A DNA stretch of 35,304 nt from a virus: the IMG/VR virus record IMGVR_UViG_3300012931_000054, positions 1 to 35,304 of that record. One strand, 5' to 3'. Below, in pieces: positions 11,827 through 35,304 of the stretch. The notes below the pieces were generated by a model. It was not told the DNA's origin and did no database searches. It saw only the letters and a program-made list of their open reading frames with translations. The stretch's first letter is position 1; each line of letters begins with the position of its first letter. The translations under genes were made by a program, and so were the position numbers.

Positions 11827-12266
11827 CTAAACCACTCGTAGTACTCGTGTCGGCGGCTAGCCAGGATAACGAGCGGCTCCATCTTCTCGTGGACTCGCTG
11901 CCAGTTCATCAGCATCCGGCCGACCCGGCCGTTGCCGTCCCTAAAAGGATGAATCGCCTCGAAGAGAATGTGGTTCGCTTTCCAGGCCAGGCCCGCCCCT
12001 ATCCAGACATCCAGGAATGTCTCGACGTGCTGATACCCTGGCGGGTAGTAACCCCCCACACGAACATCACAGGTCCTGAGTCGGCCAGCGATTCCAGGGT
12101 TCAGATTGCACATGATTCGCTTATGGAGGGCCAAAAGCAGCTCAAGCTCCATCTCTTGGTAGGGAAGGAGCCAATCCCAGGCCGCCAGGCAGCGGGCGTC
12201 CTCTTCGGGGTCGTCGACGTCTTCGATTAGGTTGCTTTCTCTGATCCAATTCACACCATCGATCAT
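11823..12266 (-). CDS. Fic/Doc-family AMP- or phospho-transferase
   Basis: Start at 12266 (MIDGVNWIRESNLIED), after GGGGGAAAAG; the longer frame overlaps another gene. The 147 residues carry the full Fic motif HPFRDGNGRVGR (106-117) with catalytic His106, preceded by the usual helix (ANHILFEAI). N-terminal SNLIED (11-16) resembles the inhibitory S/T-x-x-x-E-G/N motif of Fic class II proteins, with Asp in place of Gly/Asn. Fic proteins transfer AMP or, in Doc, phosphate to host targets. Here it is translationally coupled to a small membrane protein upstream and the partner gene downstream. Confidence 0.9.
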   Translation of the reverse strand: MIDGVNWIRESNLIEDVDDPEEDARCLAAWDWLLPYQEMELELLLALHKRIMCNLNPGIAGRLRTCDVRVGGYYPPGYQHVETFLDVWIGAGLAWKANHILFEAIHPFRDGNGRVGRMLMNWQRVHEKMEPLVILASRRHEYYEWFR

Positions 12267-12370
12267 CTTTTCCCCCAGCTTCCTATACCCCGCAATAGAA
12301 GTCCCCAGAAAATACACCACGCCAGCGTGGTGATCGCATCTGCAATTATTCTGGCAGCCTCGTCGCTCAC
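12263..12370 (-). CDS. 35-aa small membrane protein upstream of Fic
   Basis: A short frame linked on both sides: GTG 12370 overlaps the upstream stop (GTGA), and its TGA overlaps the Fic ATG (ATGA at 12263-12266). It reads SDEAARIIADAITTLAWCIF then WGLLLRGIGSWGKR: an amphipathic start, one hydrophobic helix (LAWCIFWGLLL) and a basic end. Coupling without gaps is the main argument that it is translated. It has no recognisable Fic-antitoxin motif. It could place or regulate the Fic protein at the membrane. Confidence 0.55.
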   Translation of the reverse strand: MSDEAARIIADAITTLAWCIFWGLLLRGIGSWGKR

Positions 12371-12696
12371 TTGAGAGCCTCCAGCACACGCTCCAAAATC
12401 CCCTCCTGTTGATAGGCCTCTTTAATGCGGCGCAGGTCCTTGATTTGATCAAGGACGGCATGGTTCCACCACCAGCGATTTAAGCCAGATCCGCCAAAGC
12501 GGCCACGATGCCTCTTCCGTCGCCCCAGCCATTCGCGCACCCGAGTCAGTTCGGCCTTATACCGATCCACCATTGTTTTGAATCCGACCTTCTCTTTTTT
12601 CCCGCCGCCGCGCAACCACTTCTCGCGCACGGGTTTGGGGCGCACCAGCTCCTTGCGCTTCTGGCCGTTCCAGTCGGTGAAGTCTTTATTGCCCAT
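12367..12696 (-). CDS. Hypothetical basic protein, 109 aa
   Basis: Start at 12696 (MGNKDFTDWNGQKRK), with GGGAGGGG 6 nt upstream. Very basic first half (RKELVRPKPVREKWLRGGGKKEK) and a helical body (MVDRYKAELTRVREWLGRRKRHRG, then DQIKDLRRIKEAYQQEGILERV). It is likely to bind nucleic acid. It overlaps the upstream gene by 11 nt and the downstream small membrane protein by GTGA. No named family. Confidence 0.75.
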   Translation of the reverse strand: MGNKDFTDWNGQKRKELVRPKPVREKWLRGGGKKEKVGFKTMVDRYKAELTRVREWLGRRKRHRGRFGGSGLNRWWWNHAVLDQIKDLRRIKEAYQQEGILERVLEALK

Positions 12697-16388: not shown

Positions 16389-16681
16389 CAGGGGTTCACC
16401 TTGGCATGGAAGATAATGCCCTTGAACCAGGCCCAAATAGCGGCGCCGATCCCAAGGAGCGCGGGCGTCCCGGCCACCGCGAACACCTTCCCAGCGGTCT
16501 TCATCGAGCCGTGGAATTCCTCGAGAGGCGGCAATCTCTCAGTGGTGACCTTTTCCAGCTTCGCATAGGCCTTTTCATCATCTTTCACGTGGTCATCGAA
16601 GCGCGCCACAAGGGTCGAGAGCATCCCGTGCATTTCGATGATCAGCGGGTCCGTCCCGCGCCTGCGCTCTCCCTCTGTCAT
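16388..16681 (-). CDS. Putative XhlA-like holin or lysis accessory, 97 aa
   Basis: ATG 16681 overlaps the stop of the polyvalent gene (ATGA). A charged amphipathic N-terminus (LVARFDDHVKDDEKAYAKLE) leads to one C-terminal membrane helix (VFAVAGTPALLGIGAAIWAWF) and a basic end. This order resembles the XhlA haemolysin/holin family and other C-terminally anchored phage proteins. It is directly upstream of the endolysin, TGATG-coupled. Function by context only; a spanin-type role is less likely since no lipobox or long coil is seen. Confidence 0.65.
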   Translation of the reverse strand: MTEGERRRGTDPLIIEMHGMLSTLVARFDDHVKDDEKAYAKLEKVTTERLPPLEEFHGSMKTAGKVFAVAGTPALLGIGAAIWAWFKGIIFHAKVNP

Positions 16682-19600
16682 TTTTTCTTCTCCTCGATAT
16701 AGGACAACATCAAAGGTTTTCCCGTCAGGTGGCCACCCGCCATGGCCTGGGCGACGACCTTGTTGTACTCATCCGGCGAAAGGCTCTCCCTGTAATACTT
16801 GAGCAGCGCCGACCGTTCTTCGTTGCTCCGAGCAAAGACCAGCGCGTTGATGTAAGGGTCCGCCGTCCGCCGGCTGGCGAAGCGCTCGTAGTTCTCCTTG
16901 AACTGGGCGAAGGGGACAACCGACGTTCCTCCCTCTCGCCGCAGGGCACCGGCCTTGATCATCTCCGCGTAGAGCTGTGCGGCCTCCACGGGCCCCGGCT
17001 TCGCGGCAGAATTCACGCTGGCCACGATGGCGTCGCGCTCATCCAAAGCCTTGTTCGCCACCTCCTGCCGCGCCTTGTTGGCAACCGCCTGAATCTGCTC
17101 ATGCAGGCCGTAATTGGAAATCTTGATGAAGCGGCCTAGGATGTTGGAAATGATCGGCGCCCCCAGGACCTTCTCGGTAAGCGTCGACGCCTTCTCCACG
17201 TCGTCGGTGGGGAAGCGGTAGATGAGGCTCGCGCCGCCCTGGTTGGCCAGATATTTCAGGAAGGCCAAGTGGCTCCGCGCACCGCCCGCCTCAAAGACTT
17301 GGTCCGGGATCGCTGTCCGACCGCGGAAGTAGTCGTAGGGGTTTTTCCCCGTCGCGTAGGTCAGGACGTCCATAGCCAGGCTGATGGGCGGCGCCAGCGT
17401 CGGCGCCTGCCCGGCCATGTAGTCCGCCAGGTTCGCCATGGACTGCCCCTTGTTCAGGGTCAGCATCTTCCACAGGAGCCCGCTGGCGAAGCGGCCCGCC
17501 TCGTCCTGGGGCAGCCGCATGTAGACAGCCTTCCCGTTCTCCGTCATCCCGAGCGGGATCACAAGATAATTCGTCTTGTCGTACTCGGAGACCCGGTCGA
17601 AAATGTCCTTCAGGCCCTTCCCCATGGCGCCGATCGCGGCGGCGAACATCAGGATCTTGGGCAGGAAATTGACCTTCGCAGTCTTCGTCCAATATTCCGC
17701 TGGCCGATCGCGCATCACCTCCCAGTCCGAACGCCAACCTTCCTTAATGGAATTGGAGAACATGAAAATGTTGTTGTAGAGACCGTATGAACCACCCCGA
17801 CGAAGAAAGTCCGGGCTTCCGATCTGTCCGCGGATCATGTGGGCAATCGTCATATCGTCCAGGCCCAACTCTTTCTGGTGGTCCTTCAGGTACTGGTAGC
17901 CGGCCAACTTCGGCATGGCTTCGATCGCAGAGCCCACGTCGTCCAGGAGCTTCCCCACCTTTTTGATGGTCTTCACCACGGGGTTGCCATCCTCCCCCTT
18001 GCCGCCAAAGTAGCGATCCATGAGGGCGCGCACCTGTTCATCCTCAGTGGAGATGGACCACTTCTCTTCCATGGTGATGAGCATCTTCTTTTCCAGCATG
18101 TCCTTCACCAGGTTGTCGGGGATGTCGAAGGCCCGACGGAAGGCCGGCGACAGGTTCCGGATGTAGTATTTGGCCACGTCCGCCATGCTGGCGCCGGGCA
18201 AGTTCTTGTAGGCCCGCTTCAGGTCGCGGATGAAGTTGAAGAGCATGAACCCCGGATTTTTCTGAACGAAGATCTGCCGGAAGAATCCCTCCGCCACCCG
18301 GATGCCATTGATGATGGGGTTGAAGCTGTCGGGATTCCGCTGGAAGGCCTTTGCCACCCCCTCGTCTACCACGAAGCCCTTCTGCTGTCCATCCTTCATG
18401 TAGGTCAGCAGCCCTTTCCCCTTGGCCGCAGGCTCCTGCGGTGCCCGGGTGAACCCGTTCCACTTTTCCTGGGCGGGCTGGATCACCTCGGGGCCAAAGT
18501 TTTTTTCCAGGAATTCCGCCGTCACTTTGGCCGCCATGTTCCGGTTGATGGCCTTGATGAGCGAGACACCTTTCATAAGCGTCGCCGTCGCCGGGTTGGT
18601 GATCTCTTGAAGAGTGCCCACCTGTCCATAGATCTTGGCGCCAGCGCCGGAGCCTCCGCCGGACAATTCGTCCGCATGCTTCGTGAACACGTCGAAGGTG
18701 GCGTAGTAGGGGTTGTCCCGAACCTTGGCCATGAGCGCGGGAGAGAGCATCCCGGACTCTTCTAGTTTGTTCACCACAAATTGCCAGCCCGTGCGGAACT
18801 TGTCCACCTGGCCCATGAGGACGCCCCATTTCGCGTCGCCCATCTGCTTGCGCATGAACTCCAGATGCGCCGCGCTGGTGGACGGTGTGAAACCAAGAGG
18901 GTTGGCCAGTCCGCCGCGCTCACCGATCACGCGCTGATGGAAAAGCACCTCACCGAGGTCGTCCCAATGCAGTCCGGCCGCCTCCAGGTCCTTGTAGATC
19001 TGGGTGTAGCCTTCCATCCATGCCTTTACTTCGCTGGCGGAATAATTCATCTCTTCCAACCAGTACTGGGGATTGTCCTCAGCTTTCGGCGTGAGCCCTT
19101 TCTTTTTCATCTGGCGAAGGTAAGCCAGGATGCCCTCGTTCTTATCGACGAGCATCTGGCGGATGCCGCTGATGATGTCGCGTGGCTTTTCCTGGGTCGC
19201 AATCCGCTCGGCGGCGCCCTGCCTCTCGCCGGCGGCGAACATTTCCTCCACGCGACCCTGCCGCGCCTCGACCACTGCGCCGCCCTTGATTCGGTCGATG
19301 ATGCCTGTGTAGGTGTTTCGCACGTCGGGCTTGCGCTCGATGTAATCGAACCAGGCCTTGTAGAAAGCGGGGGCCTCCTGCCGAAGAAGGGCGGGATTGT
19401 TGAAGAGGACGCTGACGGCGTCCGCATACAGCTCGGGGGAGGAATAGCGATAGGCGGTATAGCTGGCGTCGGCCGCCGGATCAAAAGGCTTCCAAACGTT
19501 GGTGATGCGCTTCAGCTCCGCCATGACCTGGGCCTGGGTGATGAGTCCGCGCTTCATCGCCTCGGCCTCGAGGCGCCGCTTGTACAGCTCCGGGATCTGG

Positions 19601-22600
19601 CTGGCGATCTGCTTCCGGAAGGCCGGGTCCTTGATGAACTGCTGCATCGTCCCGCCGGATTTGCGCACCAGGTCCGTCACCAACTGGGCGCGAATGCTCT
19701 CGCGCTCCGCCGGCGTCAACACCTTGCCGGCCTGGTCCGGCATGGCCTCGATCATGTCCTTCATGTAGGAACGCAGACTGCCGATCCGGCCCAGGATATT
19801 CCCGCGGCCGATGTTCTGATCCGGCAACCAATCGATCATGTGGCCGATCTCGTGGGCCAACGTCTTCGCAGCACCGGCCGCGTCCTTAAAAATGGCCGAG
19901 TTGAGAACGATTTTCCCGTCGCGCGTGGAGAAATAACCCCGAGTCCCGGGGTCACGCATCTTCTCGAAAACGACCGGGTATTTCCCTTGCATCAGCTCGT
20001 GAGCCAGCTCAACGATCTCCGGCATCTCGAGCGCGGGCGGCAGTCCTTCGGTGGCCTTCGCCGCGGCAGTCACGGGCGGCGTTCCGCCGGGGAAGGCGGG
20101 CTCTTTATCCAGCAGCCCGGCCTGTCCGGTCATGGCACGCTCCTCCAGCGCCGCCGGAAGAGCCCCGTGCGGGGGCGCGATCTCCTTGCCGATGCCCTTG
20201 GGCTTGGCTTTGACCGGCAATAAATCGCCCGCCTCGACGGTCTGCACTTCGCCCGTCTTCTCGTCTTTGATGCGAAGGAATTTTTCGTTGGGAAGATCGG
20301 ATGGCTCGCGCGGCAACTCTTCCACGACGGTGTATGTGCGGGGACCCGTGCTTTGGAGACGGAACCGCTGAGGAGGAGGGGCTTCTTTGGCCAACCGCGC
20401 CGCGACGCCTTCGCGCGTGGCCTGGCTCAGGGGAACAGCGAGAGTCGACCCAGTGCGCGGGTCGTTGAAGAGCGCCATCGTCTCTTTGCCCGGCTGGCGC
20501 GTCGTTTGAAGCCCGACATACTGGGCCCCGGCCGCTTCAACAGCGGCTTTTACTTGGGATTCTGAGGGTTGTCCCCGGAGGGCGGCAAGAGTGTCTCCGA
20601 CGGAAGGACCTTGCGCAGGTACTCCCGCTCCGCCACCTTGTCCCGCAAGATCTCCGCCAACCGGAAGCCCCCCATGAGGGCCTGCGGGTTCAGCAACAGG
20701 CGCTCCAGAGAGTGGGCCGGGTCCGGCTCCAGATGGTACTGCCGCTTTGCCAGGACCTCCGCCGCCTCCGCCTGCCGGTCCAAGCGCTCCTTCAGCGCCT
20801 TGTCCTGGCGTTGTGACGACTTCCACGCCCGGCGCAGCTCCTCCGCCGGGGCCCGAAAGGCCTTCCACCGGCGCCACGCCAACAGGCCCTTGCGCCACAA
20901 CAGGAGGCTCCATGACACCGGCAGGAGAAGAAGGCGCATTGCCTTCTCCGCCCACGGCCACTGCTCCGCCGCCACCAGCAGGAGGAGTCCCCCGTAAAGC
21001 AGCGCCGCCCCCCAATTCATGACCGGCGCCAAAATCCGGAACTTCGCCAGCAAGCACGTCAAGCCCGCGAACATCAGCAGGAGGCTTGCCGGCAGGAACC
21101 ACGCCCTGAGACTGTAGCTTCTCATATATCCTATTGTATCCCAGCTTCTTCAAAAACTCCACTTCTTTTTCGGCCAGCGGCGTGCCGGTTTTGGCCTTCT
21201 CCAACAGCAAGAAAGCATGGTCTTCTTTGTCCAGCGCCACGCCCTGAGTCACCTTTTCGGCGACCAGATCTCGCCGAACGGTGTCGATGTTGTAGTCGCC
21301 GCTCTTGAAGCGGTTCGACTCGCTGGCGGCCTGGCTGGGCTCGGGCAACCCCTCTTCGGGCGCCGCCACTGGAGTCTGGGCTGCTGGCGGCACGTTCACC
21401 GGGGCCCGCGCCGCGGGCCCCGTGAGCTGGACTTCCGGCCCTACGCCTTCGCCTGCCTTTACGAAGAACTTCACCCGACCGGACATGACCTTGTTGACGA
21501 CGCCTTTCAGTTCCCCCTCAGACAGGTTCTCGGCCAAAGCGCTCAACTTACGGCCGGCGGAAGGGTTGATGCCTTCCACGCTCCGGATGAACCGGCTCTT
21601 TCCATCCGGCATGGACCAAATCTCGCCGCCCACTTCGTCCATGGCGGACCGAAACACGCTGGCCGCATCCGTTAGTCCAAACCGCAGCGCCATCCCCGGG
21701 AAACGGTTGACGACACCGGCCACGACCGCCGGCACGCCCACGCCGAAGATGGCCTCAGTGCCGATGGCTTCCTGAAATTCCGACGGCGTGAACGGCTGGG
21801 CGAGCACGGCCTGCCGTACCACATCCTGGGCCTTGGGCGAGATAGCCGTCTTCCCCGCGGCATCCTCGATCTTTCCAAACATGCCCGGGGGCAACCCCAA
21901 AGCCAGCTCCGCCGGCGCCAGAAGAGTTTTCCCCAAGACCTTGGAGAAGATTCCGGCCTGCGGATGCTCTTCTGTGGCCAAGGCGCCAGCCACAGCGCTC
22001 TTCACCGTCTGGCCCGCCTTTTGAATCAAGGCCGTCGGTTCCGTCACCGCCAAGGGCCCGGCGGGGATTTTGGCTTGCCCTGCGCGGAGCATCTGCAAGG
22101 TCTCACCAACGCTTCCCGGGAGGTGCGGTTTCTGGAAAGGCGATAGGGCCGCAATGGAATCCACGGCTTTGGCTGCCATGCCAGGCAATCCGGAAGCACG
22201 CAGGGCGTCCCGGGCCGCGCCGCTGGCATCGCTCAGCGCTCCTTTTATGTCTTGCATCAGGGTGGGCGGAGCTTCCGCGGACCCTGCGGCCTCAGGAACC
22301 GGTGCGGTCTCTCCTCCAGAGGTTCCGCTACGAAGAACCGCCAGGGTATCCTTCACCGACGGCTGCTTCACCTGGGCCTCGGGAATCGGAGTCAGACCCA
22401 CCTTCGGCATTTGGGCACGGATCCGCGCTGTCTCTTCGGGCGTAAACCCGGCCGCTGCGAATTCCGCGTCGGTGCGTGGCTGTCGCGGCGTGGCACGGTC
22501 CACCACCCCTCCCACCTGCACCACTTCATTGGGACGGATCTGACCATGCTCGGCCGCGTCATAATAAGCGGACCTCGTCGGAAAAGAAGCCTCCGGCGAA

Positions 22601-22707
22601 ACGCTCGCGGGCGCAGCGCTCCGCATCGCGGAGAGCGTTTCCGACACGGAGCCGCCTCCCTCCGAAGGGGCTTCCCTCATCCTGCGGATGGTCTCCGCCA
22701 CGCTCAT
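16678..22707 (-). CDS. Giant polyvalent ejection protein with HEIGH metallopeptidase and LPD38-like region
   Basis: 2009 residues, starting at 22707, 3 nt after the previous stop. Layout: residues 1-720 are low-complexity and linker-rich, with five short motifs S-V-x-E/D-T-L/I-x-x-M/L-R (2, 20, 117, 199, 701); 528-719 is a Gly/Ala/Pro run overprinted by another gene; near 952 the zinc-peptidase motif AHEIGHMID, followed by SPELYADAVSVLF and other helices; about 1470-1800 resembles LPD38 of polyvalent proteins (FVQKNPGFMLFNFIRD, later NYLVIPLG and MRLPQDEAGRF). Such proteins are packed in the virion and enter the host with the DNA. It probably protects or prepares DNA entry, and the peptidase may clip host or virion proteins. 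It is the largest gene here and ends into the lysis cassette. Confidence 0.9.
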   Translation of the reverse strand: MSVAETIRRMREAPSEGGGSVSETLSAMRSAAPASVSPEASFPTRSAYYDAAEHGQIRPNEVVQVGGVVDRATPRQPRTDAEFAAAGFTPEETARIRAQMPKVGLTPIPEAQVKQPSVKDTLAVLRSGTSGGETAPVPEAAGSAEAPPTLMQDIKGALSDASGAARDALRASGLPGMAAKAVDSIAALSPFQKPHLPGSVGETLQMLRAGQAKIPAGPLAVTEPTALIQKAGQTVKSAVAGALATEEHPQAGIFSKVLGKTLLAPAELALGLPPGMFGKIEDAAGKTAISPKAQDVVRQAVLAQPFTPSEFQEAIGTEAIFGVGVPAVVAGVVNRFPGMALRFGLTDAASVFRSAMDEVGGEIWSMPDGKSRFIRSVEGINPSAGRKLSALAENLSEGELKGVVNKVMSGRVKFFVKAGEGVGPEVQLTGPAARAPVNVPPAAQTPVAAPEEGLPEPSQAASESNRFKSGDYNIDTVRRDLVAEKVTQGVALDKEDHAFLLLEKAKTGTPLAEKEVEFLKKLGYNRIYEKLQSQGVVPAGKPPADVRGLDVLAGEVPDFGAGHELGGGAALRGTPPAGGGGAVAVGGEGNAPSSPAGVMEPPVVAQGPVGVAPVEGLSGPGGGAAPGVEVVTTPGQGAEGALGPAGGGGGGPGKAAVPSGAGPGPLSGAPVAEPAGPHGGLPVGGDLAGQGGGAGVPAQGPSVGDTLAALRGQPSESQVKAAVEAAGAQYVGLQTTRQPGKETMALFNDPRTGSTLAVPLSQATREGVAARLAKEAPPPQRFRLQSTGPRTYTVVEELPREPSDLPNEKFLRIKDEKTGEVQTVEAGDLLPVKAKPKGIGKEIAPPHGALPAALEERAMTGQAGLLDKEPAFPGGTPPVTAAAKATEGLPPALEMPEIVELAHELMQGKYPVVFEKMRDPGTRGYFSTRDGKIVLNSAIFKDAAGAAKTLAHEIGHMIDWLPDQNIGRGNILGRIGSLRSYMKDMIEAMPDQAGKVLTPAERESIRAQLVTDLVRKSGGTMQQFIKDPAFRKQIASQIPELYKRRLEAEAMKRGLITQAQVMAELKRITNVWKPFDPAADASYTAYRYSSPELYADAVSVLFNNPALLRQEAPAFYKAWFDYIERKPDVRNTYTGIIDRIKGGAVVEARQGRVEEMFAAGERQGAAERIATQEKPRDIISGIRQMLVDKNEGILAYLRQMKKKGLTPKAEDNPQYWLEEMNYSASEVKAWMEGYTQIYKDLEAAGLHWDDLGEVLFHQRVIGERGGLANPLGFTPSTSAAHLEFMRKQMGDAKWGVLMGQVDKFRTGWQFVVNKLEESGMLSPALMAKVRDNPYYATFDVFTKHADELSGGGSGAGAKIYGQVGTLQEITNPATATLMKGVSLIKAINRNMAAKVTAEFLEKNFGPEVIQPAQEKWNGFTRAPQEPAAKGKGLLTYMKDGQQKGFVVDEGVAKAFQRNPDSFNPIINGIRVAEGFFRQIFVQKNPGFMLFNFIRDLKRAYKNLPGASMADVAKYYIRNLSPAFRRAFDIPDNLVKDMLEKKMLITMEEKWSISTEDEQVRALMDRYFGGKGEDGNPVVKTIKKVGKLLDDVGSAIEAMPKLAGYQYLKDHQKELGLDDMTIAHMIRGQIGSPDFLRRGGSYGLYNNIFMFSNSIKEGWRSDWEVMRDRPAEYWTKTAKVNFLPKILMFAAAIGAMGKGLKDIFDRVSEYDKTNYLVIPLGMTENGKAVYMRLPQDEAGRFASGLLWKMLTLNKGQSMANLADYMAGQAPTLAPPISLAMDVLTYATGKNPYDYFRGRTAIPDQVFEAGGARSHLAFLKYLANQGGASLIYRFPTDDVEKASTLTEKVLGAPIISNILGRFIKISNYGLHEQIQAVANKARQEVANKALDERDAIVASVNSAAKPGPVEAAQLYAEMIKAGALRREGGTSVVPFAQFKENYERFASRRTADPYINALVFARSNEERSALLKYYRESLSPDEYNKVVAQAMAGGHLTGKPLMLSYIEEKKK
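20550..21125 (-). CDS. Overprinted membrane protein inside the polyvalent gene, 191 aa
   Basis: Same strand, different frame, wholly inside the polyvalent gene. It starts ATG 21125 after TAGGAT and ends TAA 20550-20552. The protein looks natural: three hydrophobic segments (about 8-27 WFLPASLLLMFAGL, 37-55 NWGAALLYGGLLLLVAAE, 63-82 MRLLLLPVSWSLLLW), then a charged coiled-coil region (RRAWKSSQRQDKALKERLDR) and a helical end. Its codons end mostly in G or C, as in real genes here, while the large frame over the same bases has many A/T-ending codons and encodes Gly/Ala/Pro filler. Both frames are probably used. It could be a membrane or lysis-related factor; no family is recognised. Confidence 0.55.
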   Translation of the reverse strand: MRSYSLRAWFLPASLLLMFAGLTCLLAKFRILAPVMNWGAALLYGGLLLLVAAEQWPWAEKAMRLLLLPVSWSLLLWRKGLLAWRRWKAFRAPAEELRRAWKSSQRQDKALKERLDRQAEAAEVLAKRQYHLEPDPAHSLERLLLNPQALMGGFRLAEILRDKVAEREYLRKVLPSETLLPPSGDNPQNPK

Positions 22708-27685: not shown

Positions 27686-28573
27686 TCATCCTCCCACGGT
27701 GAAACCGGTAAAAGCGCCTCCGTACGGGATCTCTTTTGACAGGAGCGCACGCGTCTTGGACTTGAAAAGCTGGTACTCCGTCTGGTAGCGCTGGTCGTCC
27801 TCATCGCGGAGCGCCTTCCACAGCACGCCCTGCTTCAGAACGTCCTGCCAGTTGCGGTAGATCCGCGTGATCCGCGTCGTCGATCCTTCCGTCAGATCAA
27901 TCTGATGGATGTTCAAGAAGAAGCGCGCACGGATTCCATACGTGGCCCGGTCCCATGGGCGATCAAAGATCAGTTGCCGGTTGTATTTGGCGAACGCCGT
28001 CGGTCGGCCGGGCACGGGAGACGATGTGCTCATCTCCGTCAGGTCAATTTCCTCCAACGGATATTCGTTGTCCACCACCAGGTAGGTGGAGCTGGCCGTC
28101 GGCGTCGCCGTCCAGGCCGACTCCACGGTGGCCACCTTCGTGGTGGCGTTGTAATCGGTGATCTGCTTCAGCTCGCCCACACCTGTGCCGGAGGTGATCA
28201 GGATCCATTTTCCTTCCGTTGTGGAGACCGTACCCGTGTCGCCGGAGGCCAGCGTGATCGTGGTTGAGGCCCCCGCCTGCGCCGTGTCATATCGGCTGCC
28301 GTCCAACACCTCCACCTCCAGCTCTTCGTCCATAGTCTCAGCCAGAGCGTAGGTGCGGATGTTTTCCGTGCTCACGTCGATCAGGGTTTCCTGGAGAGTT
28401 TTCAGGCGCGTGTTGCCGGTCGCCACGCCCTCCAACCAGATGTCGTTGAGCACTTCCTGGAGCCATTGCCCGGTGGCGCGCGTCAGCTGCGCGCTGGAAG
28501 GGCTGGACTCTCCGGCGGAATTAAAAGCCTCCGTGACGATGGTCGTGGCGGTCGGGTCCGTGGGCAACGCCAT
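27686..28573 (-). CDS. Head-tail adaptor / tail tubular A-like protein, 295 aa
   Basis: ATG 28573 overlaps the upstream stop (TAATG). The N-terminal helices (TIVTEAFNSAGE, ATGQWLQEVLNDIWLEG) are typical of podovirus adaptors such as T7 gp11 and P22 gp4. A beta insertion follows (residues about 95-165, TITLASGDTGTVS, GKWILITSGTG), then WDRATYGIRARFFL and a C-terminal helix (WQDVLKQGVLWKALRDEDDQ, YQTEYQLFKSKTRALL). It would connect portal and tail hub. The assignment rests on helix pattern and gene order. Confidence 0.75.
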   Translation of the reverse strand: MALPTDPTATTIVTEAFNSAGESSPSSAQLTRATGQWLQEVLNDIWLEGVATGNTRLKTLQETLIDVSTENIRTYALAETMDEELEVEVLDGSRYDTAQAGASTTITLASGDTGTVSTTEGKWILITSGTGVGELKQITDYNATTKVATVESAWTATPTASSTYLVVDNEYPLEEIDLTEMSTSSPVPGRPTAFAKYNRQLIFDRPWDRATYGIRARFFLNIHQIDLTEGSTTRITRIYRNWQDVLKQGVLWKALRDEDDQRYQTEYQLFKSKTRALLSKEIPYGGAFTGFTVGG

Positions 28574-28779
28574 TATTTGACCTCCTTCAAGGTCCCCTCG
28601 ATCTTGTTCGGCACGCGAGCATCGTTCGGATGGACGCCGTCGAAATCAAAGGGACAGACGATCAGCCCCTTCTGCGTCCCGAAAATGCCGCGGCGCATCT
28701 CGCTGAAGCGATAAGTCAACCCGCACACGTCACACTCGACGATGCGGTTCCCAGGGATGTAGACCTGGGAATGCGACAC
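28573..28779 (-). CDS. Small zinc-ribbon structural-region protein, 68 aa
   Basis: GTG 28779 overlaps the upstream stop (TAGTG); the stop overlaps the adaptor start (TAATG). The pattern VECDVCGLTYRFSEMRRGIF then QKGLIVCPFDFDGVHPND is widespread in small phage proteins encoded near head-tail genes. CDVC plus the single Cys in VCPFDFDGVHP may bind zinc, with Asp or His completing the site (the usual CPxC is CPFD here). It is probably a minor connector-region protein; function unknown. Confidence 0.8.
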   Translation of the reverse strand: MSHSQVYIPGNRIVECDVCGLTYRFSEMRRGIFGTQKGLIVCPFDFDGVHPNDARVPNKIEGTLKEVK

Positions 28780-29099
28780 TAGTCCCTCTCCTGCCGATCC
28801 AGATACCCATAGACGACGCCCTCGCCGCTGGTCGTCACGTCCAACCAGATGGCACTCAGGTCGATTTGGGCTTCTCCCAGTCCGAAATCAACCGAGGAAA
28901 GATTCACGCTCCCGCCGGCCGGGAGAGAGACGAAGTGGGTCGTGGAGCTGACGGTGTTGTTTCCAATGAAGACTCGGTTCGTGTTCGCCGCCAACGCCTG
29001 GATGACGATGGACGGTGTCTTGACCGTGTTGGTCGTCAGTTGCTCCCGCGTGCCCGCGGTCGTGACGGTTTTCCTGAAATGCGAAAGTTTCAGTTTCAT
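28779..29099 (-). CDS. Small beta-rich structural protein, 106 aa
   Basis: ATG 29099 with AGGAGGATCCG upstream. The Thr/Ser-rich N-terminus (TVTTAGTREQLTTNTVKTPS) is followed by regular beta strands (IVIQALAANTNRVFIGN, THFVSLPAGGSVNLSS, IWLDVTTSGEGVVYGYLD). Such proteins are common as decoration or minor head-tail components. It probably pairs with the similar 29109-29465 product. No enzyme motif. Confidence 0.75.
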   Translation of the reverse strand: MKLKLSHFRKTVTTAGTREQLTTNTVKTPSIVIQALAANTNRVFIGNNTVSSTTHFVSLPAGGSVNLSSVDFGLGEAQIDLSAIWLDVTTSGEGVVYGYLDRQERD

Positions 29100-29108: not shown

Positions 29109-29465
29109 CTAACGGAACGCCAGGTGGCCGACGACGGCTACCGACGCTGTCGCCTGCTCTCCCTGGGCGTTCCCGACAGAAACAGCCACTCCCACCCCGG
29201 GCCCCACGCGCAATCCTTCCTCGCCCAGCGGCAAAGCGAAATCCTTGACGCCGTCGGCGTTCAGGCGCCAAATAAAATTGCCGTTGGTGTCCTGCACTAG
29301 AACCTCACCGCCGCCACCGGTCGCCGCCCGGGAAACGGAAATCGTGATGCTCTCGATGTAGAGATAAAGAGTCGAACCCGGCGCTGCGATCAAAATCGAA
29401 GAGCCTGAAGAATTGCTCACCTCAGCCACTCCGCTCGTCTGAATGTTCTCGTAACGATTGGCCAT
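29109..29465 (-). CDS. Small beta-rich structural protein, 118 aa
   Basis: ATG 29465 after AAGGAGGCCTGAA. An all-beta sequence: SSILIAAPGSTLYLYIESIT, VLVQDTNGNFIWRLNADGV, GPGVGVAVSVGNAQGEQATA. It ends SVAVVGHLAFR. It resembles jelly-roll decoration proteins of tailed phages, and lies 9 nt upstream of a similar small protein. It may be a capsid or tail decoration protein and, if glycans are made by the neighbouring cassette, a possible acceptor (inference only). Confidence 0.72.
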   Translation of the reverse strand: MANRYENIQTSGVAEVSNSSGSSILIAAPGSTLYLYIESITISVSRAATGGGGEVLVQDTNGNFIWRLNADGVKDFALPLGEEGLRVGPGVGVAVSVGNAQGEQATASVAVVGHLAFR

Positions 29466-29466: not shown

Positions 29467-29907
29467 TCAGGCCTCCTTGTGCTCGATCTTTCGCGCCGGC
29501 ACGCCGGCCCAGGTCTCCCCGGCCGGCACGTCGTGCGTCACCACCGATCCCGCGCCGATCAGCGCCTTCTCGCCGATGGTGATTCCCGGCAAAACCGTGA
29601 CGGCCGCGCCCAGCCGCGCACCCTTCCGCACCAGGGTCGTCTTCCAATTCTCCCGGCTGGAGGGCGGATACAAATCGTTCGTAAAGGTGCACCGCGGCCC
29701 GATCCAAGCGCCGTCTTCCAGGGTCACGCCCTCGGGGATGAAACACATGGCGCCGATGCGCACGTCGTCTCCGATGCGCACGTCCGGTCCGATCTCCGAG
29801 AAAGCGCCGATGTTGACTCCTTTTCCGATCACCGCGGCGGCGAACACCTTGCTGGGGCTCCAGATCCGCGTGCCCGCTCCCATGGCGATGTAGGCGCCCT
29901 CATCCAT
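29467..29907 (-). CDS. Left-handed beta-helix (hexapeptide) acyltransferase
   Basis: ATG 29907 overlaps the dehydrogenase stop by 8 nt. Repeated [LIV]-G-x-x-x-x hexapeptides fill residues 26-60 (VIGKGVNIGAFSEIGPDVRI, GDDVRIGAMCFI) and 105-132 (LPGITIGEKALIGAGSVVTH). FTNDLYPP and the ending ETWAGVPARKI are typical of sugar O/N-acetyltransferases of the WbbJ/WlbB/NeuD kind. It would acetylate a (nucleotide) sugar. It is the last gene of the sugar cassette, between it and the structural genes. Confidence 0.9.
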   Translation of the reverse strand: MDEGAYIAMGAGTRIWSPSKVFAAAVIGKGVNIGAFSEIGPDVRIGDDVRIGAMCFIPEGVTLEDGAWIGPRCTFTNDLYPPSSRENWKTTLVRKGARLGAAVTVLPGITIGEKALIGAGSVVTHDVPAGETWAGVPARKIEHKEA

Positions 29908-30607
29908 GGCGAAGGACCTCCTTGAGCATGTCGTTGGAGCACATCTCTTCGAGTATCCGCGTTCCCGGGATCACACAGTGGCCGCCGATCTTCCCCGAGC
30001 TGTCTGGCTCTATCAAAGGCCTCTTCTTAGACGGGTACACGCCTTCGTTATAGTTCGCGTCCCAATCCATTACGTGCTCGAAGGGCACGCCGATCTCATC
30101 GCACAGCTTCTGCTGGTAGAAGGCGAAGGCGATCGAGACACCGTACTTGGCCAGGCACATCAGCTTGAGCAGTTCCGTCTCATCGGCCGTCTCCACCGTG
30201 CGGCAGCGTAGGTGCGCTTTCTCGAAGAAGGACGCCGCTTTTTCGGCCAAGGGCCCGCCGATCCATTTCGTGTACGTCTGGATGTCCTCGCGCATGCGCC
30301 CGTGCCGGCCCAGGATTGGACTGTGGACGGCATTCTCGAACTGCTTCGTCGTCCCCACCGGAACTGTCGAATGGATCACCGTCAGCGCGGGCAGGTGACC
30401 GCCTTGATACTCCCACACCAACTCTTTGAAGTTCGGTCCCCAGGGCAGGCACACGTGCAGGATATCCGCCAGCTCCGTTGGCCTTTTGTCGAACCCCTCT
30501 TTTTTGGGGTCATAGCCGAGGATCTCGCCGGGATAGGCTGCGTCCAGCACTTGCCACAGCGGCATGCCCGTCTCTCCCAGCCCGACCACGATCGCCTTCT
30601 TACGCAT
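29900..30607 (-). CDS. UDP-sugar dehydrogenase-like protein
   Basis: ATG 30607 overlaps the glycosyltransferase stop by 8 nt. Residues 5-16 hold the Rossmann motif VVGLGETGMP. VIHSTVPVGTT (78-87) matches the UDP-glucose/ManNAc dehydrogenase family, as does the helix ELLKLMCLAKYGVSIAFAFY (145-164). Near the end GKIGGHCVIPG (206-215) carries the cysteine position of the family (GGHC, Cys211). At 235 residues it is about half the usual length, lacking the C-terminal UDP-binding domain, so it may be a one-domain phage version using another partner. It probably oxidises or otherwise acts on a nucleotide sugar. Confidence 0.8.
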   Translation of the reverse strand: MRKKAIVVGLGETGMPLWQVLDAAYPGEILGYDPKKEGFDKRPTELADILHVCLPWGPNFKELVWEYQGGHLPALTVIHSTVPVGTTKQFENAVHSPILGRHGRMREDIQTYTKWIGGPLAEKAASFFEKAHLRCRTVETADETELLKLMCLAKYGVSIAFAFYQQKLCDEIGVPFEHVMDWDANYNEGVYPSKKRPLIEPDSSGKIGGHCVIPGTRILEEMCSNDMLKEVLRHG

Positions 30608-31250
30608 CGGTCTTCACCATCAGATCGTCGAATCGACCTTGGAAGGTCCAGTCCAAGGGCACCGCGTCCATGTGCTTCGGCCGGATATCCGGATCCACCC
30701 ACAGGCGCATGCCGCTGTCCCACAGCTTTTTGGTGAAGTGCTGATCCAAAGAAGAGAGCCGGGCCATGGTGGTCACGTTGTATCGCTCGCTGAACCAGGG
30801 CCGCGACAGCTTCTCGAAGACCCCGGTTTCGATCAGAAAACAGTTGAGCGAGCCATACATCACCGGCTGGAATTCCACCGGCGTGAAGGGCTGCCCCTTC
30901 TCGTCCCAACACAGCGGCTGAAAAGGCTTTGAACCCTTGAACTGCGGAAAGTACCCGCGGCACGGCTGCATGGCGCCCACTGCCGCCACCCCATGCGCCC
31001 GCAGTTTGGCGTAGAGCCGAATCAGGACATCTTCTTCCACCAGCTGGTCAGCGTCCACAAACCAAATCAGCTCCGCTCCCCAGGCCATGGCCTGCTCTAC
31101 CCCCGCCGTCTTGCGCCGCGCCGAACACCAGCCGGCCGGCATGAACCACTTCAGTTCCGCGCCCGCCGGCGCCTTCACGTTAAGGAACGCCGGCACGGTC
31201 TTAGCCCACAGGAAGGGGCTGTTCCAGGGGATCACGCAGGCGATTTTCAT
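30600..31250 (-). CDS. GT-A glycosyltransferase, DxD intact, 216 aa
   Basis: ATG 31250 overlaps the upstream stop (ATGA). MKIACVIPWNSPFLWAKTVP is the N-terminal strand and loop, AWGAELIWFVDADQ carries the DxD metal site (Asp66, Asp68), then YAKLRAHGVAAVGAMQP and a C-terminal WTFQGRFDDLM. It is a paralogue of the next gene (shared PAGxE, GWC.ARR, GxKPFQPL, TFQ.RFDD). Phage enzymes of this type add sugars to proteins, cell-surface glycans or modified DNA bases. Its acceptor is unknown. Confidence 0.85.
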   Translation of the reverse strand: MKIACVIPWNSPFLWAKTVPAFLNVKAPAGAELKWFMPAGWCSARRKTAGVEQAMAWGAELIWFVDADQLVEEDVLIRLYAKLRAHGVAAVGAMQPCRGYFPQFKGSKPFQPLCWDEKGQPFTPVEFQPVMYGSLNCFLIETGVFEKLSRPWFSERYNVTTMARLSSLDQHFTKKLWDSGMRLWVDPDIRPKHMDAVPLDWTFQGRFDDLMVKTDA

Positions 31251-32029
31251 GCCGCGACCTCCGCGCCCTTCGGCTGGATGATCTGCGGCTCACTCGATTT
31301 CCCCGGCTCCATCCAATCGTCGAAACGATCTTGAAAAGTCTCGTCGATGGCCATATCTGTCAGATGCAGGATCTTGATGGAGGTGTCGCACCAGATGGTC
31401 GCCGCTGCCTCCACGATCAAGCGCCAAGCGAAGCGGGTGTCCATGTTGGCGAAGCGCCGGTAGGTTTTCGGGTCCACGGCCTCCGTGAACCAGGGCCGGG
31501 CCAGGGACAGGATATGGTCCCGGTGGAACATCAGGCACCCGGAACCGATCATGTGCACCTGGTGGACTTCCCCGTCGGCCTTGATGACCTCGATCATGTC
31601 CCCGTCCTGCTCCTGGCCGCGATAGTCGCGCCACACAGGGTTGCCGCTCTCGTCCACGGGCAGGGATTTCCATTTCCAGGCCAAGGGTTGGAAAGGTTTC
31701 GTCCCCACGTTGTGGCCGAAGAATCCCCTCGACGGGACCAGGGCACACACGACCTGCTTCCCTTCCAAGAAGCGAGCGTAAAGTCGCTCGAGCAGATCGG
31801 GAGGCGCGATCTGGTCCGCACCGAAAATGCAGACCAGATCGGCCCCCCAATCCAATGCCTTTTCGATCGCGTCGGTATGCCGCCGCGCCGGGCACCACCC
31901 TTTTCCAAACACCCACTGGATTTCGGTTCCAGCGGGCGCCCGCACCTGAAGAGCCGCTTCGGAGAAGCGGGTCCAGATGAAGGGGCTGGCCCAAGGCACG
32001 CAGACGGCGATCTTGACGCGGTCGGCCAT
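31247..32029 (-). CDS. GT-A glycosyltransferase paralogue with altered DxD, 260 aa
   Basis: ATG 32029 follows the beta-helix gene by 2 nt. Clear homologue of 30600-31250 (VCVPWASPFIWTRF, GWCPARRHTDAIEKAL, GTKPFQPLAW, ETFQDRFDDWM). In place of D-x-D the motif is F-G-A-D-Q (Gly70, Asp72), so the first Asp is lost. An insert follows (DYRGQEQDGDMIEVIKADGE), and the GSGCLMFHRD stretch is well kept. It may have changed metal use or specificity, or act with its active neighbour. The stop is coupled to that neighbour by ATGA. Confidence 0.82.
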   Translation of the reverse strand: MADRVKIAVCVPWASPFIWTRFSEAALQVRAPAGTEIQWVFGKGWCPARRHTDAIEKALDWGADLVCIFGADQIAPPDLLERLYARFLEGKQVVCALVPSRGFFGHNVGTKPFQPLAWKWKSLPVDESGNPVWRDYRGQEQDGDMIEVIKADGEVHQVHMIGSGCLMFHRDHILSLARPWFTEAVDPKTYRRFANMDTRFAWRLIVEAAATIWCDTSIKILHLTDMAIDETFQDRFDDWMEPGKSSEPQIIQPKGAEVAA

Positions 32030-32031
32030 GT

Positions 32032-32955
32032 TTAGCTGGCCGTCGTCGAGGGCACGCGCGCGCCGGTCGCCGTCACGACATCCGTGAAGAAGACCTGCGA
32101 GGTCAGCATGCCGCCCGCATCGAACACGTCAGCCGCCGAAGAAGCGGCGTCCAAGCCGAAGTGCACGTTGCACAGAAGGCCGTCGACCAATCCCGTGGAG
32201 GAGTTGAAGTCGAACGCCGCAACGTTGTCGCCGCCCACCACCGCCAGGCCGTAGAACCCGTTGACGAGCAGGCCCGTCAGCGACTTCTTGGACATGGAGA
32301 TGAAGGCGGTGTCGACATCGCGCACCGAGCTGCCGTGGAAGTACGTGTTCTCCATCAGCCAGTCGGGAGCGATCGCCGTCGCCTCGATGATGATGCCCTT
32401 GTCCGTCCCCGCAGCCGCGCGGAAACGGGTGTTGAGCCAACGCGCTCCGTCGGCTCCCGCGGACACCGTCACCAGGGAGGTCGGCGTCACCCCGCCCTGA
32501 AGTTCCATGTCGATGAACGTCGGGTAGGTCCCGCTGATTTCCAGCAGGGCCGTGACGCTGGCCGACGCGCCCACGATCACGAAGTTGTTGAGCGTGACGT
32601 TGTTCGCGCTGATCGTGAACACATCGATCGCGCTGGCGGCGGAGGTGAACACCGGCCGGTTACGGCCAAAGCCCAGTCCGACGATGGTGCAGCCCGCGAT
32701 CGGGGTGATCGTCGTCGACACCGTCTCCGCGTGTCCGGGCATGAGGATGACCACGTCGCCCTTGCTGGCCGTGCACAACGTCAGCGCATAGGCCAGGGTG
32801 GCGACAGGATGGTCCTTGTCCCGGCCGGAATTCGCATTGCTTCCGGTCGTGGAGTCCACGAAGAAATACGTCCCGGTCGTGGCCGGGATGCGGTTGCCGC
32901 CCATAACAGGCACGCCAAACGAGGTGAGACCGTTCGGGAAGTTCGTAACACCCAT
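32032..32955 (-). CDS. Beta-helix-type virion protein, 307 aa
   Basis: ATG 32955 after AGGAGGCTTCAC. TYFFVDSTTGSNANSGRDKD then HPVATLAYALTLCTASKGDV is the opening seen in many phage pectate-lyase-like beta-helix proteins. Strand repeats follow (VVILMPGHAETVSTTITPIA, NNVTLNNFVIVGASASVTAL, DKGIIIEATAIAPDWLME). No catalytic residues stand out. It follows the major capsid gene after a strong inverted repeat and leads into the sugar cassette. It may be a head fibre, decoration or depolymerase-like protein. Confidence 0.78.
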   Translation of the reverse strand: MGVTNFPNGLTSFGVPVMGGNRIPATTGTYFFVDSTTGSNANSGRDKDHPVATLAYALTLCTASKGDVVILMPGHAETVSTTITPIAGCTIVGLGFGRNRPVFTSAASAIDVFTISANNVTLNNFVIVGASASVTALLEISGTYPTFIDMELQGGVTPTSLVTVSAGADGARWLNTRFRAAAGTDKGIIIEATAIAPDWLMENTYFHGSSVRDVDTAFISMSKKSLTGLLVNGFYGLAVVGGDNVAAFDFNSSTGLVDGLLCNVHFGLDAASSAADVFDAGGMLTSQVFFTDVVTATGARVPSTTAS

Positions 32956-32981
32956 GTGAAGCCTCCTGGTTTAGGAACGCG

Positions 32982-33013
32982 CGACCATATCGGTGATGTC
33001 ACCGATATGGTCG
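32982..33013. repeat. Perfect 15-bp palindrome between capsid and beta-helix genes
   Basis: Arms 32982-32996 and 32999-33013 are exact reverse complements around TG. As RNA this is a long hairpin with a very short loop. No T tract follows on the minus strand, so it is not a standard terminator. It could reduce read-through, set the capsid-to-downstream ratio, stabilise the capsid mRNA or bind a protein. Confidence 0.85.
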
Positions 33014-33047
33014 GCGCCGAGCGGAATCGCACCGCCCCTTACCCGTT

Positions 33048-33953
33048 TTAGATGCCCGGAGATCCGTAGATCCCGCGCCACTCGCTGAACCCGTTCGACC
33101 ACCGCGCGGTCGCCTTGAACTTGGCGTCCTCGGTATCGAAGTCGTTGTCCTGCTCGAAAGCAGGGCGCCGGCGCCAGAAGAAGTTCACCTCGTGCGTGTC
33201 TCCGAGGATAAACCAGGCGTCGGTGTCGGTCAGGTAGTGGTTCACGACGATGCCGCCGGGAAGCGCGCCCTGCGCCGGGTTGATGGCGTTGTTCGCGCTG
33301 TCGGGGTCCTGACCGGAGTTGAGGATCTTGCGGGCATTCCATTCACCCGAAGGAGCGACGAGCAGCTTCATGGGCCGCAGCGCCAAGACCAGCCCGCGAT
33401 CGTCCGTTGTGGCTTGGATATCGATCAGGGCCTGCTCCAGCGAGGTGTCCGTGAAGTCCGCGGCGCTGCTCAGCGCATTCTGCTCGGTTCCGCCGCCCGT
33501 CAAGGGGTGGCTGGTGGAGCAGAGGCAGATGCCGTCGCCGCCGGTGTAGGTGCTGTTGAAGGCGCGGTTGTAGACGTTGGCCGCATCCTGCTCCACGGTG
33601 ACGCTCATGGAGCGCGACAGGGCCTTCGGCATCTTCCGCATCTTCCCGTACAGGTCGTCCTCCCACATCTCGCGGGTGACGCGGAACCCGAGGGCGCGGG
33701 TCGTGTGGGTGTACCGCTTGTTGTAGCCCTGGATCGGGGAGTCGTAGGTGATGCCGACGCCCTCTTCCTTGTCCGGCACTGTCCCCAAGCCGGAGACCGA
33801 GGAATCATCCTCGTACTGCCGCTCCGAGCTGAGCACGTTGAAGATCTTCGGGAACTCCGGCGGGTAGCCGGCAAACATGTTCGCGTCGAAGATCTCCCGG
33901 AAACCCGGTGCCAACAGGTCTCCAAAGTTCGCACGTAACGCCTTATCGGGCAT
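33048..33953 (-). CDS. Major capsid protein (Mu gpT / HK97-fold type)
   Basis: ATG 33953 after AGGAGGCATGCGCC. 301 residues: N-terminal arm (FGDLLAPGFREIFDANMFAG), E-loop-like region (TYDSPIQGYNKRYTHTTRAL), helix region (MWEDDLYGKMRKMPKALSRS), GICLCSTSHPL, LEQALIDIQATTDDRGL, then the typical C-terminal WFILGDTHEVNFFWRR, FDTEDAKFKATARW and WRGIYGSPG. This fits the Mu-like major head subunit group. It forms the icosahedral shell. It lies after a leader with two short hairpins and is not translationally coupled, as expected for high expression. Confidence 0.9.
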   Translation of the reverse strand: MPDKALRANFGDLLAPGFREIFDANMFAGYPPEFPKIFNVLSSERQYEDDSSVSGLGTVPDKEEGVGITYDSPIQGYNKRYTHTTRALGFRVTREMWEDDLYGKMRKMPKALSRSMSVTVEQDAANVYNRAFNSTYTGGDGICLCSTSHPLTGGGTEQNALSSAADFTDTSLEQALIDIQATTDDRGLVLALRPMKLLVAPSGEWNARKILNSGQDPDSANNAINPAQGALPGGIVVNHYLTDTDAWFILGDTHEVNFFWRRRPAFEQDNDFDTEDAKFKATARWSNGFSEWRGIYGSPGI

Positions 33954-33991
33954 GGCGCATGCCTCCTATAGTTGATTTGTGTGGTTCCATG

Positions 33992-34025
33992 CGCCTGGAC
34001 AGGCGGGGCGCCGCGGGAAGCGGCG
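33992..34025. promoter_or_regulatory. Two hairpins in the capsid leader
   Basis: CGCCTG-GA-CAGGCG (33992-34005) and CGCCGC-GGGAA-GCGGCG (34009-34025) lie in the 92-nt gap before the capsid ribosome site. They could shield the 5' end of a processed capsid mRNA or end part of the upstream transcripts. No good promoter was found in the gap. Confidence 0.5.
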
Positions 34026-34045
34026 GAAAAACGGGGCGCTTCTAC

Positions 34046-35304
34046 TTAGGCCCTACAGACGGCCACGTAGTCGCGGGAATTCTTTTTGATGTCGATCTTC
34101 TTAAATTGTTTGCCCAGCGCCGCGCGAAGAGACTCCTCGGAATATCCGCGCACGTGCTCAAAATGACCCTGGATCTCTTCGCGCCACGGCGTCGCCACGA
34201 CGACCGTGCCCTCTGGCTTGACCAGCGCGCGCAGGAGCGACACGAAGCGGTCCTCTTCCTTGATGTGCTCGATCACGTGCGCGCTCACGACGGCGTCGTA
34301 GCTGTGGGCGTCGCCGTTGGGGGCGTAGCTGCGCACGTCGGCGACGATGCCTTTGAAGCCTTTCTTCTCCACGGCTTCGATGGCCTTCTCGGAAAAGTCG
34401 TAGCCTGTAAAAGTGGCAGGCGAAAATCGTCCAGCCTCTAATCCGTGCTCGTTCAGAAACTGCAACAGAACCCCTGTGCCGCAGCCGATGTCGGCGACAC
34501 TCATCCCATCGGCCCCTTTAAGGGCGCCCATCACGTCGCGGAAGGTCTCTTCGTAGCCGCCCATCCGCTCCTTCCCGCGGATCCCCTCCGCCTGCCACAG
34601 CACATCCCAATAGCCGCTTTCAAGGGCCTGTTTCTGCATGGACTCCAGCATGGAGTCGACCATGCCCGAGGAATTGAACCCTTCCGCCCACTCCCGGCTG
34701 ACGTAGGTCATCTTTCCGTGGTCCGAGCACACGTCAGTGTCCACCACGATCTTGAACCCTTTCTTTTTAGCCTGCATGCAGAAATTCACGTCGTGCCCGA
34801 CGATCCGCCGGCCCGTGTCCGGCCGCCAGATGTCCGTGAAGGCCGGCCAGCCCACGGCGTCCAGTACCTTTCGGTGGATCAGCATCCCACCGGAGCCTGC
34901 CCAGTCCACTTCCACGACGCCCTTCCCCAGCGAACAGTAGTTCTCCTTCCAGTCCACGCCGTTCTTGTTGAAGAAGGAAATCGTATTCCCCTCCTCCTTC
35001 ATCCACCCGGCCACCGGCGCGTAAGGCGCGCGGCCGATGTGGTATAGGACCGACACGATCCCCGCCTCATGCTTCTTGGCGGTCTCCATGAGGCGGGGAA
35101 TCGTGTCGGGCGGGAACAATTGGTCCACGTCCATCAAGAACAGCCACTCGGCCCCCATCTGGCAGGCCTTGTACACGGCGTCGTTGATCGAAGACGCCTT
35201 TACCGAGGATTCGCCCTTGACGGCGACGGACCCATTCGGTTTGAACATGCGCAGGTAGCTCCAGAAAAAAGCGTCCGGCAGCATGCAGTGGTTGTTCGAG
35301 ATGC
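34046..35304 (-). CDS. Glycosyltransferase-methyltransferase fusion (N-terminus outside window)
   Basis: The frame runs to the right edge; upstream of ATG 35284 it continues as ISNNHC without a stop, so the true start may be outside. The N-terminal half is a GT-A domain (GAEWLFLMDVDQ with Asp52 and Asp54 counted from 35284, SGGMLIHRKVLDAVGW, VGHDVNFCMQAKKKGF). It is related to the two other glycosyltransferases. The C-terminal half is a class I SAM methyltransferase (VADIGCGTGVLLQFL near 260, FTGYDFSEKAIE, AVVSAHVIEHI, GTVVVATPWRE). It would add and then methylate or cap a sugar. It stands upstream of the capsid gene. Confidence 0.88.
   Translation of the reverse strand, partial: ISNNHCMLPDAFFWSYLRMFKPNGSVAVKGESSVKASSINDAVYKACQMGAEWLFLMDVDQLFPPDTIPRLMETAKKHEAGIVSVLYHIGRAPYAPVAGWMKEEGNTISFFNKNGVDWKENYCSLGKGVVEVDWAGSGGMLIHRKVLDAVGWPAFTDIWRPDTGRRIVGHDVNFCMQAKKKGFKIVVDTDVCSDHGKMTYVSREWAEGFNSSGMVDSMLESMQKQALESGYWDVLWQAEGIRGKERMGGYEETFRDVMGALKGADGMSVADIGCGTGVLLQFLNEHGLEAGRFSPATFTGYDFSEKAIEAVEKKGFKGIVADVRSYAPNGDAHSYDAVVSAHVIEHIKEEDRFVSLLRALVKPEGTVVVATPWREEIQGHFEHVRGYSEESLRAALGKQFKKIDIKKNSRDYVAVCRA

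Follow-up and report, generated by a model that had tools for sequence, protein, structure and literature searches.

The linear IMG/VR virus record IMGVR_UViG_3300012931_000054, which derives from an uncultured bacterial virus and was analysed over its whole length (35,304 bases; the window), carries sugar-modification genes set around the genes for the major capsid protein and a right-handed beta-helix protein (BH). The gene for one of the putative glycosyltransferases (GTs), GTb, directly follows BH, and this pairing recurs in other viral contigs with correlated divergence of the two proteins. On balance, we incline to the view that the genes constitute a virion O-glycosylation cassette in which BH is the main acceptor and which produces an acidic, N-acetylated, methyl-capped glycan. 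The seven cassette and capsid genes, all on the minus strand, and the proposed attachment site are as follows.

34046..35304 (ATG at 35284), minus strand: GTMT, putative GT-A-like glycosyltransferase fused to an S-adenosylmethionine (SAM) methyltransferase; gene truncated at its 5′ end, where the contig stops.
33048..33953, minus strand: major capsid protein, Mu gpT-like (PF25209, E 3e-19; phrog_371, E 1e-23).
32032..32955, minus strand: BH, right-handed beta-helix protein and proposed glycan acceptor (AlphaFold2 model, PDB matches, adjacency to GTb).
32035..32052, minus strand: BH C-terminal tail PSTTAS (residues 302–307), proposed O-glycosylation site (correlation of tail with GTb).
31247..32029, minus strand: GTb, putative GT-A-like glycosyltransferase paired with BH (family-level GT2 matches, invariant residues).
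30600..31250, minus strand: GTc, putative second glycosyltransferase, GTb paralogue with a DAD motif (weak GT2 and phrog_1574 matches).
29900..30607, minus strand: NDH, predicted truncated nucleotide-sugar dehydrogenase without the C-terminal uridine diphosphate (UDP)-binding domain (TIGR03026, AlphaFold2 model).
29467..29907, minus strand: HEX, predicted left-handed beta-helix acyltransferase of the nucleoside diphosphate (NDP)-amino-sugar N-acetyltransferase type (Hexapep, E 5e-21; PDB matches).

A preliminary description of this DNA had given the same gene set, order and strand, with overlaps of 4–8 nt, and these hold: GTb and GTc overlap by 4 nt, GTc and NDH by 8 nt, and NDH and HEX by 8 nt. 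The gap between BH and GTb is 2 nt. The reading proposed there, a glycan on the virion, is borne out in part. Relatives (L numbers below) were gathered by a capsid-protein scan and a dehydrogenase scan, and more NDH genes by a profile scan. The gpT-like capsid gene and the tail-adaptor-like genes of the window are common to podovirus-like relatives.

Scans with GTb only yielded 25 loci and then two more, and in all 27 IMG/VR contigs (about 24 after merging of near-identical ones) the gene directly upstream of GTb encodes BH. The pair is found with gpT-like, HK97-type (phrog_10) and phrog_14242 capsids. BH and GTb distances are correlated (Mantel rho 0.51, p 0.0005, n = 23 loci), also within the 15 loci with a gpT-like capsid (rho 0.45, p 0.005), whereas neither protein follows the capsid (BH–capsid rho 0.06; GTb–capsid rho -0.09). 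The two therefore appear to move as a unit between phages with unrelated capsids. A more specific version, in which BH and its glycosyltransferase form a mobile glycoprotein pair swapped between such phages, with glycans on a dedicated C-terminal sequon and a new minimal sugar dehydrogenase, stripped of its nucleotide-binding domain, oxidising a sugar that is either bound by the hexapeptide partner or already on the protein, is put forward only tentatively, and we think it more doubtful than probable. A scan with BH itself returned 80 BH loci, most of them without an adjoining GTb-type gene, and in 74 of 111 cases BH is preceded by a recognised capsid gene at a distance of at most 1.5 kb. Beta-helix genes also occur in tandem, with four paralogues in L258 (5083–8727) and two in L211 (5054–6969), and likewise in L204 and L205.

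The C-terminus of BH differs with the presence of GTb. BH proteins whose gene adjoins a GTb-type gene end in a Pro-x-x-Thr/Ser tail (VPSTTAS in the window; IPATTSTA in L191), whereas those without such a neighbour often end in SGYLLPAADS-like sequences. After removal of near-identical proteins, the tail is present in 20 of 27 BHs with an adjacent GTb-type gene and in 2 of 52 without one (Fisher p 6e-11, a value that is uncorrected for kinship and concerns a motif defined after inspection of the data). The motif had already been settled when two more GTb loci came to light, and both have it (L284, VVPVATPS; L292, IVPTATST). On a tree of 76 BH proteins built without the tail, where 20 of 24 strict GTb pairs have the motif, there are five changes in GTb presence, three of them forced by supported branches; the tail follows the GTb state in 2.4 of the 3 supported pairs, and the reverse practically never occurs. 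The AlphaFold2 model of BH is a beta-helix (predicted local distance difference test [pLDDT] score 80) with low confidence at residues 1–20 and 305–307, so the tail, apparently unstructured in this model, can be exposed and may serve as the attachment site.

The preliminary description had listed the capsid, the beta-helix protein and small decoration proteins as candidate acceptors. The GTb pairing, the shared evolution and the tail single out BH from that list and make the capsid less likely. Virion glycosylation could nonetheless be correct with a different acceptor, namely the capsid, the decoration-like protein encoded upstream of GTMT, or the small proteins sb1 and sb2, BH having been inherited with GTb for other reasons; we regard this as unlikely, though far from negligible. 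Full-length relatives of GTMT (420–426 aa) directly follow the decoration-like gene DECa in L002, L003 and L004, as does a more remote one in L194, so that all four distinct full-length cases share this position. NDH cassettes without BH follow a capsid and a decoration-like gene in L085, L091, L092, L093 and L098, and the acceptors in mycobacteriophages are capsid and tail tube (PMC12619734, PMC11256854). However, GTb shares no evolution with the capsid, its pair with BH occurs beside unrelated capsids, and sb1 and sb2 are also present where all of the glycosyltransferases are missing. That lack of correlation between GTb and the capsid (rho -0.09) lowers the case for the capsid as sole acceptor. 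The genes that follow the cassette are these.

29109..29465, minus strand: sb1, small beta-rich protein directly after the cassette; relatives without the cassette have it too.
28779..29099, minus strand: sb2, small beta-rich protein that follows sb1 in relatives, whether the cassette is present or not.
27686..28573, minus strand: tail-adaptor-like protein that closes the cassette interval; same position in L003, L004, L083, L093 and L098.

GTMT, GTb and GTc probably all encode phage glycosyltransferases. GTMT has a clear Pfam methyltransferase match (E 1.5e-14), a weak GT2-like match (E 1.3e-5) and a match to phrog_1574. Both domains of the fusion proposed in the preliminary description are thus recognised, although the gene is cut by the contig end: because its frame is open to base 35302 and runs off the contig, and the relative in L003 is 423 aa long, the ATG at 35284 is probably internal. 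The three related transferase domains that had been described are of unequal kinship, since GTb and GTc are paralogues with 40% identity, whereas the transferase domain of GTMT is only a remote relative of them. GTb and GTc score 16 and 17.1 bits against Pfam GT2, below the curated cut-off of 23.3, and GTc also matches phrog_1574 weakly. Of the 22 members of the GTb family, 13 have a GT2 match (E up to 0.1; best E 2.2e-4), and G70-x-D72-Q73 and the C-terminal H222 are invariant in the family alignment. A putative DxD-type metal site, recognised from sequence only, reads DVD in GTMT, DAD in GTc and GAD in GTb, where the second Asp is invariant. Because their own Pfam matches are below the cut-off, the glycosyltransferase label for GTb and GTc is based on the family-level evidence together with the conserved DxD/GxD and His. 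Comparison of the GTb sequence with the PDB gave no significant match; weak matches to collagen and arabinose transferases were discounted as evidence.

NDH, described earlier as dehydrogenase-like, does match the nucleotide-sugar dehydrogenase model TIGR03026 (E 7e-7), and among solved structures UDP-ManNAc dehydrogenases are its closest relatives. Its AlphaFold2 model (pLDDT 95.8) superposes on residues 1–285 of the 418 residues of 4r16 (Z 19.9, root-mean-square deviation 2.0, 222 residues). As the model ends at residue 285, the C-terminal UDP-binding domain is missing, and NDH is for this reason not filed as a full member of the UDP-glucose/GDP-mannose dehydrogenase family. Among 48 NDH members, the N-terminal nicotinamide adenine dinucleotide (NAD) domain PF03721 is matched in 16 and the central helix domain PF00984 in 25 (E up to 0.1), and no variation is seen at Cys211 (in a GGHC motif), at His102 and Asn187, or at glycines 11 and 14 of the Rossmann fold. 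Lys148 (48 of 48) and an STVP motif are invariant as well; both lie within the two search patterns, so the conservation of Lys148 is partly imposed, whereas that of Cys211 is not. The median open reading frame is 236 aa, and in no case among 90 unfused members does the protein extend more than 100 residues beyond the match. NDH is thus predicted, from its model, to be a UDP-sugar-dehydrogenase fold that retains the catalytic Cys and is devoid of the UDP-binding domain. Two tandem truncated copies (272 and 241 aa) occur within one cassette in L098, and contigs assigned by binning to Patescibacteria and DPANN archaea carry the truncated dehydrogenase genes L170 to L175. In nine further contigs (L133, L136, L141, L142, L144, L149, L156, L160, L163), the gene is part of a conserved cassette with radical SAM, uncharacterised 229-aa, GT8-like and carbamoyltransferase proteins; this group has no recognised capsid gene nearby.

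The assignment of HEX as a hexapeptide acyltransferase agrees with its Hexapep match and with its best PDB matches: the N-acetyltransferase 7s43 (E 2e-30), WxcM-like proteins, the lipopolysaccharide (LPS) acetyltransferase 3mqg and QdtC. HEX is thus predicted to be a hexapeptide left-handed beta-helix with NDP-amino-sugar N-acetyltransferases (WxcM/QdtC/WlbB) as its nearest solved relatives. NDH is fused to HEX in L082, L083, L085 and L120, which argues for a functional link between them, and NDH together with a WlbB/WxcM-like HEX suggests an acidic, N-acetylated amino sugar. In the reading that we favour, GTb would, in the host cytoplasm during late expression, place the first sugar on Ser/Thr of the flexible BH tail (PSTTAS); GTc and the transferase domain of GTMT would lengthen the glycan, and the methyltransferase would cap it. 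The sugar would be prepared or completed by NDH and HEX: the former, with NAD and a thiohemiacetal-forming cysteine, would turn a hexose into a uronic acid by oxidation at C6, and the latter would N-acetylate an amino sugar. BH would then belong to the virion, and the particle would bear an acidic, N-acetylated, methyl-capped glycan that may serve in shielding or adsorption. The set of reactions given in the preliminary description (transfer, oxidation, acetylation and methylation) is plausible but unproven chemistry.

Sulfotransferase-like genes follow BH in L219, L237 and L239, phages without the standard GTb pair, which suggests sulfation there in place of, or besides, uronic acids; anionic modification may be a common theme of these cassettes. 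After BH, L217, L219, L237, L239 and L208 carry members of an unnamed family (about 200–240 aa) whose N-terminus resembles GPSW..CP...EIW. Pfam scans of three of them (L217, L219, L239) gave no match; the family is perhaps another transferase.

The cassette recurs in whole or in part. L003 has every cassette gene and one extra methyltransferase-like gene; L084 has the capsid gene, BH, GTb, NDH and HEX; L002 has GTMT, BH and GTb; L004 has GTMT only; and the relatives L005, L006, L008 and L009 have no cassette genes. Where the capsid is of phrog_1357, a type unrelated to the gpT-like capsid of the window, the order is capsid, decoration-like protein, GT4, methyltransferase, second glycosyltransferase, NDH–HEX fusion, GT9-like protein and tail genes (L083/L092, L085), with a similar arrangement and unfused NDH and HEX in L093 and L098. 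NDH genes from the profile scan adjoin capsid genes of SU10, phrog_267 and phrog_1357 types and SU10-type adaptors, and their neighbours often encode LegB-like dehydratases, DegT aminotransferases, UDP-GlcNAc 2-epimerase, cytidylyltransferases and glycosyltransferases. NDH recurs beside four capsid types. Of the 21 contigs in which a capsid gene was found, 13 have NDH at most 9 kb downstream of it, a tally that includes contigs used as profile seeds; the null mean is 2.8 with random strand and 5.6 with strand fixed (p 0.00035). On the contig of L095 (positions 27992–28942), the match to the phrog_267 capsid is broken up into overlapping segments in which TAA and TAG occur; a frameshift, an insert or a gene fragment might explain this.

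Such genes are usually read as modifying the host surface (PMC7029224, pelagimyophages; PMC12911398, Patescibacteriota phages). The cassette would accordingly alter LPS/O-antigen or capsule during infection or lysogeny, as in superinfection exclusion, and BH would be the matched receptor-binding or depolymerising spike. We hold this to be improbable, although BH resembles polysaccharide lyases and esterases, an integrase-like gene (window 10151–11347, identified by eye) makes lysogeny possible, and GT9-like genes occur within the phrog_1357-capsid cassettes. If the O-antigen were modified, a flippase or a membrane transferase would be expected, so it counts against this explanation that GtrA (PF04138; control found in 7 genomes) and Wzx-type flippase families (controls responding) were each found in none of 21 records and that the cassette enzymes have no membrane segments. 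Seroconversion of the GtrABC type was rejected, as the 21 records showed no GtrA and the cassette enzymes no membrane segment that would mark a membrane glucosyltransferase. The cassette, moreover, sits in the capsid-to-adaptor interval, and relatives carry its genes beside capsid, beta-helix and head–tail adaptor genes; the preliminary description would have counted a place beside LPS or DNA-modification genes as refutation. Glycosyltransferases of other phages glycosylate DNA (work cited in PMC12619734), and hypermodification of DNA bases is a further explanation to which we attach very little probability: the position of the cassette and the BH pairing do not fit, and no thymidylate-synthase-like enzyme (PF00303; control found in 9 genomes) was detected in the 21 records. 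As most of these records are incomplete, the absences carry moderate weight.

Several observations weigh against glycosylation of BH in the virion. No glycan has been seen on these virions, and the collection of isolate phages searched contains none with GTb or NDH. That search gave two partial matches, both weak, to records with the label Staphylococcus phage; an NDH–HEX fusion query hit mostly short hexapeptide stretches of unannotated records, with one weak match across most of the query in MT835989 (23.5% identity, E 3e-4). BH could instead be an enzyme or a receptor-binding spike, its nearest solved folds (PDB matches) being beta-helix lyases and esterases. The tail motif was chosen only after the data had been looked at, and in its strict form it is missing from the GTb-type pairs in L180 (IPTATAD), L182 (VPIATAQVSAS), L233 (MPTTAAA) and L187 (IAAGMVSAQ), the last having a tail with no Pro at all; the three to five independent changes on the BH tree are consistent with a link between tail and GTb and are too few for significance. 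The lack of a UDP-binding domain leaves the substrate of NDH unclear. Finally, the late genes of the window include no aminotransferase or 3-dehydrogenase of the amino-uronic acid pathway, and therefore the precursor must come from the host unless a simpler product is made.

Ten flanking late proteins were compared with PHROGs, and eight had no match; the other two were an endolysin and a 2009-aa protein (window 16678–22707, minus strand) that matches phrog_14770 only weakly (E 0.001) and is a candidate ejected or internal virion protein. Near the integrase-like gene, a Fic-like protein (window 11823–12461, minus strand) was recognised by eye from the motif HPFRDGNGR.

The closest known system is virion glycosylation by phage glycosyltransferases in the mycobacteriophages Che8 and Rita (Freeman et al., 2023, as cited in PMC11256854 and PMC12619734). 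It resembles the cassette in its phage-encoded transferases and in the sugar on virion structural proteins that is proposed here, and its C-terminal attachment would have a counterpart in the candidate BH tail. It differs in that the transferase genes are reported to sit close to the 3′ end of the genome (Maravista, PMC11256854), whereas the genes described here occupy the capsid–adaptor interval, include a beta-helix pairing and their own sugar-modifying enzymes, and come from no isolate. The a64r gene of chlorovirus PBCV-1 (PMC4691112) also fuses a GT-A domain to a methyltransferase in a virus that glycosylates its own capsid protein. However, PBCV-1 is an algal virus with an N-linked glycan on Vp54, and the likeness drawn here is one of domain make-up. 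With the Wbp/Wlb pathway for diacetamido uronic acid (WbpA, WbpB, WbpE, WbpD), the cassette has in common the WxcM/WlbB-like HEX and the UDP-ManNAc/UDP-glucose dehydrogenase fold of NDH, and other phages add a WbpB homologue (L190 cassette, E 5e-68) or DegT aminotransferases (other NDH cassettes); it differs in that NDH has no UDP-binding domain and the window has no WbpB or aminotransferase. Caulobacter flagellin O-glycosylation by FlmG (PMC7591256) is alike in working, with a soluble cytoplasmic enzyme acting on a structural protein before assembly, but its target is different, and the comparison is an analogy that does not make the cassette a member of that system.

Virion glycosylation itself was already known, whereas the pairing of BH with a glycosyltransferase and the truncated dehydrogenase appear to be new: a literature search, whose coverage did not extend to most subscription journals, found no report of a phage beta-helix/glycosyltransferase pair, of a dehydrogenase without the UDP domain or of capsid-adjacent phage sugar cassettes. 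When sugar genes turn up in uncultured phages, they are routinely classed as auxiliary metabolic genes that act on the host O-antigen (PMC7029224; PMC12911398); here, the neighbourhood ties them to one presumed structural protein. The truncated NDH raises the enzymological question of how the active site of a UDP-sugar dehydrogenase works without the UDP domain, and, given the short candidate attachment site, two small soluble proteins would suffice to put phage virion glycosylation to the test.

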